From Candidatus Methanoplasma termitum (GTDB taxonomy: Archaea; Thermoplasmatota; Thermoplasmata; Methanomassiliicoccales; Methanomethylophilaceae): DNA of 64,000 bases. Made by a program: the position numbers and the translations under genes. The notes beneath the pieces were generated by a model, which was not told the origin of the DNA, searched no databases, and saw only the letters and a program-made list of their open reading frames with translations. The stretch is taken from NCBI RefSeq assembly GCF_000800805.1, contig NZ_CP010070.1, positions 1,302,001 to 1,366,000 on the forward strand. The letters run 5' to 3'. Position 1 is the first letter of the stretch. Every line of letters begins with the position of its first letter. Positions 44,235-45,237 of this stretch are shown here, in pieces.

Positions 44235-45179
44235 ATGTGTCTCAATACAACGATATTCATCCGTTATAGAGGGAACGAACGATTTTGTCAAATGAAGAGT
44301 GAAAAAATGGATATGAAACAGATACAGGCCGAAACAGAGAAGTTCCGGGCAGAGATGATGGCGATACAGTCAAAGTACATTGCCAACCCGACGCCTGAGA
44401 ACCTTGTGAAAATGCAGCAGGAAATGATGGCTGTCCAACAAAAGATGGCAAATCTTACCGCACAATACATTGCGGTGGCAGAAGGTGCGGAGGTACGCCC
44501 GGAGTCATTTGACTTTGATGCGGATGAGGGTGACGAAGAGCTCGAACAATTCATCAAAGATCACCCGGTGCCCGCAGACAAGGCCAAGTATCTGCCGATC
44601 GGGGCAATGCTCCTCTGCACCAACTACGAGCCGTACCAGGTCTTTGCCATGACCGGCGAGAAGAGCGACTGGAAGGATGCGATGAAAGAAGCTTGGGGGA
44701 TCAAAAATGCCAAAGACGGAAGAGAAATGCTGGCATCTCTTCTTGACGGCAGGCATGAGTCCGTTTTGGGATAGGATTATCGTAATTTCAAAGCAAAAAA
44801 GCCGAACGAACTGGATGAAGACAGCATTGAAAGTTATGAAACATTGGTCGAGGCCGCGGGCGAATATCTTCCGACACTTGCCCCTTACATAGGGAAATGC
44901 AAAACTCTGATAGCATGGGATCTCGACAGAGCCGGATATCTTGCAAGGATATTCGTTCACTTAGGGTGGATAGACGAAAAAGAATCCTTTGACTGGATCG
45001 CAAAGGTCGCAGCAAAGATCAAAGCTTCCGGTTTTACCAAGTGGGAAGAATACTTTGCCTCGATCCTTGTCGGACGTGCGATACATATGGGCTTCGATCC
45101 GGAAGTGATCGCCGCTGTTTACGAGATACTCGTTGAGAATAAAGAATTCATGAAAAGCCATCCGTTCTCGGCTTTGTGA
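44235..45179 (+). CDS. DUF1266 protein with an in-frame amber codon (possible pyrrolysine)
   Basis: One frame of 314 sense codons if a TAG at 44772-44774 (codon 180) is read through. Before it: a helical Met/Gln-rich N-terminus, an acidic linker and the start of a DUF1266 domain (DWKDAMKEAWGIKNAKDGRE, LLDGRHESVLG). After it, with no other stop: DYRNFKAKKPNELDEDS then the rest of the domain (LIAWDLDRAGYLARIFVHLG, FTKWEEYFASILVGRAIHMG). Family members contain both halves in one chain, so the TAG interrupts the domain. Either it is decoded as pyrrolysine or the gene carries a nonsense mutation. TATATTTTAT lies just upstream; ATGs at 44292 and 44307 are alternative starts. Function unknown. Confidence 0.75.
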
Positions 45180-45237
45180 ACCTGCGTCTGCCGTTCGCCA
45201 CGGCAACGTATTTTTACACCGATGAGGATGATGCGAT

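Follow-up and report, generated by a model that had tools for sequence, protein, structure and literature searches.

The window analysed here, the whole stretch of 64,000 nucleotides between positions 1,302,001 and 1,366,000 of the Candidatus Methanoplasma termitum genome, contains on its plus strand an open frame for a DUF1266 protein that is interrupted by a single amber codon, with the following features:

44235-45179, plus strand: DUF1266 open frame with the amber codon, ending in TGA 45177-45179 (Pfam and homologues)
44297-44309, plus strand: probable start region, ATG 44307-44309 with the ribosome-binding-like sequence GAGTGA before it (homologue alignment)
44772-44774, plus strand: amber codon within the frame, proposed to encode pyrrolysine (the two archaeal homologues closest in sequence have GAG, for Glu)
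44775-45176, plus strand: C-terminal half of the DUF1266 protein (coding signal, conserved residues intact)
45189-45205, plus strand: terminator-like hairpin and T run directly past the full-length frame (weak: 1 found against 1.1 expected)

Translated from ATG 44235 to the TGA with the TAG taken as a residue, the frame matches PF06889 (DUF1266) over residues 150-289 (E=1.5e-21), scoring 77.8 bits against a Pfam gathering cut-off of 27. Counted from this ATG the amber codon is residue 180 and lies inside the domain, which bears out an earlier sequence-only reading that had seen the two halves of a single DUF1266 domain on either side of the TAG; its description of one open frame is likewise correct, the TAG being in frame and followed by 134 sense codons with no other stop before the TGA. 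The true start is more likely ATG 44307 than ATG 44235, because homologues align from there and GAGTGA precedes it, and the product would then probably have 290 residues with the amber at codon 156.

In a genome-wide search this was the only DUF1266 gene found, with one TAG inside the match, and DUF1266 was the only family above its Pfam cut-off for the amber protein, no methylamine methyltransferase family being matched. A structure model (mean pLDDT 74.8) was obtained in which residue 180 falls in a confidently predicted helix (173-186); the model had no match in the PDB, the sequence had no convincing one, and no function for DUF1266 was found in the literature searched.

Pyrrolysine machinery

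The sequence-only reading had named an absence of pyl genes as a ground for giving it up, and that ground is removed by a search of the genome in which the C-terminal domain of PylS was found (E=4.9e-81, 270.9 bits against a cut-off of 178), in one cluster with PylB, PylC and PylD, all above their curated cut-offs. The PylS N-terminal family has no match in the genome; a shortened PylS has been described for Methanomassiliicoccales (PMC3941956) and is expected in this order, so the missing domain is not evidence against decoding. Upstream of pylS and on the same strand lies a tRNA-Pyl candidate, GGGAGACGGUCUGGGACCAGUAGGCCUCUAAAGCUCAACCAGCGGGGUUCGAUCCCCCGGUCUCUCGCCA, with a 7-bp acceptor stem (GGGAGAC/GUCUCUC), the anticodon loop CUCUAAA (anticodon CUA), a T arm of CGGGG/CCCCG and an encoded CCA, the pairing having been assigned by eye from the known pairing. 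It has a mismatch in the anticodon stem, an imperfect stem being a trait of the order (PMC3941956). ARAGORN did not detect the tRNA-Pyl, a plain minimum-energy fold of the candidate gave no cloverleaf and an Rfam scan of the pyl region returned chance matches only. Two mtmB genes interrupted by the classic amber codon are also present, and their products match PF05369. Judged by its gene content, the organism, a methanogen of the gut, is equipped to read TAG as pyrrolysine, the 22nd amino acid.

Use of TAG across the genome

Stop codon usage was surveyed over 1.274 Mb of the 1.489 Mb genome in 1039 ORFs obtained by a simple codon-usage method, of which 713 end in TGA, 306 in TAA and 20 in TAG. 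Five of these 20 TAG ends are internal ambers of longer genes (the two mtmB, DUF1266, CbiX and a transposase), and the others include some doubtful calls and three copies of one ORF resembling an insertion-sequence gene, leaving roughly 10 real distinct TAG ends, or about 1% of genes. Since TAG and TGA are made up of the same bases, this rarity represents strong depletion. Most TAG-ending genes are followed by a second stop within about 20 codons, a number of cases too small for certainty; such a backup stop would make read-through less harmful.

Coding signal on both sides of a TAG was found at seven junctions, namely mtmB twice, DUF1266, the CbiX-type chelatase, DUF6951, the transposase and one that looks non-coding. 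Two-sided signal was also seen at 34 TAA and 41 TGA junctions, most of them with a start codon directly after the stop, as in neighbouring genes, and the same scan gave no clear case of one gene interrupted by either of these stops (judged by codon signal, with five cases inspected by eye that were neighbouring genes or non-coding). All four clear interruptions that the two-sided scan gave in genes other than methyltransferases are TAG; with equal odds for the three stops the chance of this would be about 0.01, in a small sample. Outside the window the following amber genes were found:

L014:7694-9310, genome 609,693, plus strand: RamA (methylamine methyltransferase activase), TAG as codon 2 (ATG TAG TAT GGA)
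L066, genome 844,065-844,847, minus strand: CbiX-type cobalt chelatase, in-frame TAG near the end of the first domain
L052, genome 321,553-321,873, minus strand: DUF6951 protein (107 residues), interrupted by TAG at codon 48
L056:3705-5195, genome about 463,705, plus strand: DDE transposase, TAG in frame as codon 395, flanked on either side by coding signal

At the CbiX amber site relatives with 67-72% identity carry Gln, Arg or Pro and no stop, and relatives overall have mostly Q, R, P or E; the DUF6951 relatives are uninterrupted and the amber site is variable. Codon 2 of RamA, an eighth amber beside the seven junctions, is AGA in an 84% identical relative, and either pyrrolysine occupies position 2 or the start lies further in, cutting the first conserved strand. 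The ambers of these four genes are lineage-specific and of the same sort as that of DUF1266.

Coding potential after the TAG

The codon-usage signal amounts to 43.7 bits before the TAG and 33.5 bits after it, that is 0.24 vs 0.25 bits per codon, and on base composition alone the probability of 134 open codons arising by chance is about 0.002; the open frame past the TAG is not due to chance. At least seven homologues from the genus run uninterrupted across the same length, and after the TAG all of the columns invariant in eight homologues are kept, including W228, D229, R232, G280 and R281. Compared with the three closest relatives, the protein shows an identity of 0.47-0.50 after the TAG and 0.48-0.63 before it, pairs of relatives giving similar values; dN is similar on both sides, and the branch leading to the amber gene measures 0.32 after the TAG vs 0.22 before, within the spread of the other branches. 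In view of the coding signal, the kept invariant columns, the identity and the dN values, the second half has evolved under constraint during most of its past. The homologues are at most about 51% identical to the amber protein, a distance at which dS is saturated and dN/dS is no guard against a recent loss of function, with which the data are compatible.

The amber column in homologues

In relatives that taxonomy classes as Candidatus Methanoplasma the TAG column contains E, E, G, P, G, K and P, and the two E codons, found in the archaeal homologues of highest similarity, are both GAG and differ from TAG by one base. The alignment of relatives that the sequence-only reading had suggested gives ordinary residues at this position. 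No stop was found inside any DUF1266 homologue in 147 genomes of the order, and no TAG at the amber column among the homologues examined from a one-genome-per-species collection; the amber is present in one species only, and conservation of the TAG among homologues, the mark of a selected pyrrolysine site, was not observed. The site also lies outside the invariant A-W-D-x-x-R block, and several relatives have no DUF1266 gene. As the column is unconserved and the closest relatives have GAG, one G-to-T change explains the TAG. The pattern fits a chance substitution in a TAG-reading organism and not a catalytic pyrrolysine.

Close DUF1266 homologues were also seen on contigs labelled Spirochaetaceae and Treponema, where they end in TAG, and in Methanimicrococcus (L097:183-1100, L107:3-362, L103, L105), reflecting either transfer among gut microbes or mis-binned contigs.

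Gene neighbourhood

In termite-gut Methanoplasma relatives the DUF1266 gene stands before or after a TPR-like gene and two ankyrin-repeat genes, which together form a conserved cassette; upstream of the cassette lies a gene for a surface-like protein of 1830 residues:

TPR-like/ankyrin/ankyrin cassettes: L015:4551-8613; L018:5521-9558; L035 and L136 (genome about 859-863 kb)

In the genome studied here the TPR-like gene and the two ankyrin genes occupy about 860-863 kb, with a SUFU gene after them in the DUF1266 slot, and DUF1266 stands alone at 1,346 kb, some 480 kb from the cassette; in one relative (G009) it is likewise without ankyrin genes. Ankyrin and SuFu proteins recur in polyimmunity loci as Imm-Ank and Imm-SuFu (PMC3482391). 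The present loci resemble these in that DUF1266 homologues adjoin ankyrin proteins and SUFU fills their slot in the source genome, and differ in that no toxin gene was identified here and in that DUF1266 is not named in the parts of PMC3482391 consulted. The exchange of SUFU for DUF1266, with DUF1266 placed elsewhere, hints at an immunity-type module, and the ankyrin and SUFU company of the homologues makes an exchangeable immunity-type role for DUF1266 a tentative suggestion.

Discussion

The correct reading of this gene is, with high probability, translation to full length with pyrrolysine inserted at the TAG, since the pyl genes, the mtmB ambers, the rarity of TAG, the equal coding signal and the intact conserved residues all argue for it. 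The gene would be an intact DUF1266 gene in which one codon, most likely GAG for Glu, changed to TAG; tRNA-Pyl charged by PylS would then read this codon, so that the complete protein has pyrrolysine at a variable helix position, where it would be tolerated, TAG being almost free of stop duty in this genome, and need not contribute to function. We consider this sequence of events very probable as a whole, and the pyrrolysine is probably incidental and not catalytic. The protein itself may be of a binding or immunity type, as the genes adjoining its homologues suggest.

A variant of this explanation is that partial termination at the TAG yields a short form beside the full-length one, their proportions depending on the supply of pyrrolysine. 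TAG still likely ends about 1% of genes, so termination at this codon may persist; the short form would, however, end in the middle of the domain, and no structured, potentially regulatory element follows the TAG (fold z-score 0.58), making a two-product gene unlikely.

Loss of the gene is similarly improbable. The TAG would in that case be a nonsense mutation in a young pseudogene, unneeded since it left the ankyrin cassette and yielding little or no full-length protein. The absence of DUF1266 from its usual neighbourhood, with SUFU in its place, could mean relaxed selection and is a point against full-length translation, and the patchy presence of the gene in relatives and the distance of the homologues are also consistent with decay. 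Against this, the 134 codons past the TAG contain no second lesion and retain coding signal and invariant residues, and the lesion is the sole stop readable here, in line with the other clear interruptions, all of them TAG.

A sequencing or assembly error at 44772 is very unlikely: the TAG differs by a single base from the codon GAG found in the closest relatives, but the genome is complete in one contig (1,488,669 bases, completeness 99.96) and has comparable TAGs in several unrelated conserved genes, comparable TAA or TGA interruptions not being seen. Least probable of all is a selected, active pyrrolysine like that of the methylamine methyltransferases, to which the amber within the domain and the presence of the machinery might point, in view of a column that varies freely in the genus, an amber confined to one species and the invariance of functional-looking columns elsewhere.

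Read-through at this TAG thus stands as the best explanation of the candidate pyrrolysine protein that the sequence-only reading had put forward. Its further suggestion of a new class of such proteins is not supported, given an unconserved site with Glu, Gly, Pro or Lys in homologues and the further unrelated amber genes of the genome. Ambers in many non-methyltransferase genes of the order were published in 2014-2016 (PMC4153887, PMC5011839, PMC4824259), and with 16 to 46 such genes per published Methanomassiliicoccales genome the DUF1266 amber belongs to a known kind. In Ca. Methanomethylophilus alvus, 16 proteins other than the methyltransferases putatively contain pyrrolysine, and TAG makes up 1.6% of the stops (PMC4153887); this archaeon belongs to the same order and shares with our case in-frame TAGs in genes unrelated to methylamine use and few TAG stops, and half of its putative pyrrolysine proteins have amber-free homologues in sister genomes, but it is another species and DUF1266 is missing from its list (PMC4153887, Table 7). 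For ISO4-H5, 46 amber genes are given, among them 17 hypotheticals and 10 insertion-sequence elements (PMC5011839), and for ISO4-G1 25, of which 9 are methyltransferases (PMC4824259). In these genomes of the same order ambers likewise occur in hypothetical proteins, IS elements and enzymes, DUF1266 not being named in the parts of the two main texts consulted.

A further parallel is tRNA-His guanylyltransferase, for which pyrrolysine by neutral evolution is reported in the title of Heinemann et al. 2009 as cited in PMC4153887. The likeness lies in a non-catalytic pyrrolysine arising from drift in one lineage. The pyrrolysine of that enzyme reportedly has experimental support, whereas that of the DUF1266 protein is predicted from sequence. 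MtmB, MtbB and MttB, of which two mtmB occur in the same genome, also have an in-frame TAG as pyrrolysine, but theirs is conserved and catalytic and the DUF1266 site is unconserved. No literature linking pyrrolysine with DUF1266 was found. Archaea that use all of their TAG codons as pyrrolysine were reported in 2025.

A combined proposal, in which TAG is a near-dedicated pyrrolysine codon and the residue occurs in a DUF1266 protein that serves in immunity of the ankyrin/SUFU type, is a long shot; if true, a protein of inter-organism defence would depend on pyrrolysine supply and hence on the methylamine-linked pyl machinery.

In conclusion, the DUF1266 amber constitutes a clean non-methyltransferase case in a complete methanogen genome with about 1% TAG stops, and the same genome yields a short list of further amber genes. 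Gene finders that take TAG as a stop would split such genes in two, and the case bears on the drift of a stop codon towards a sense codon.
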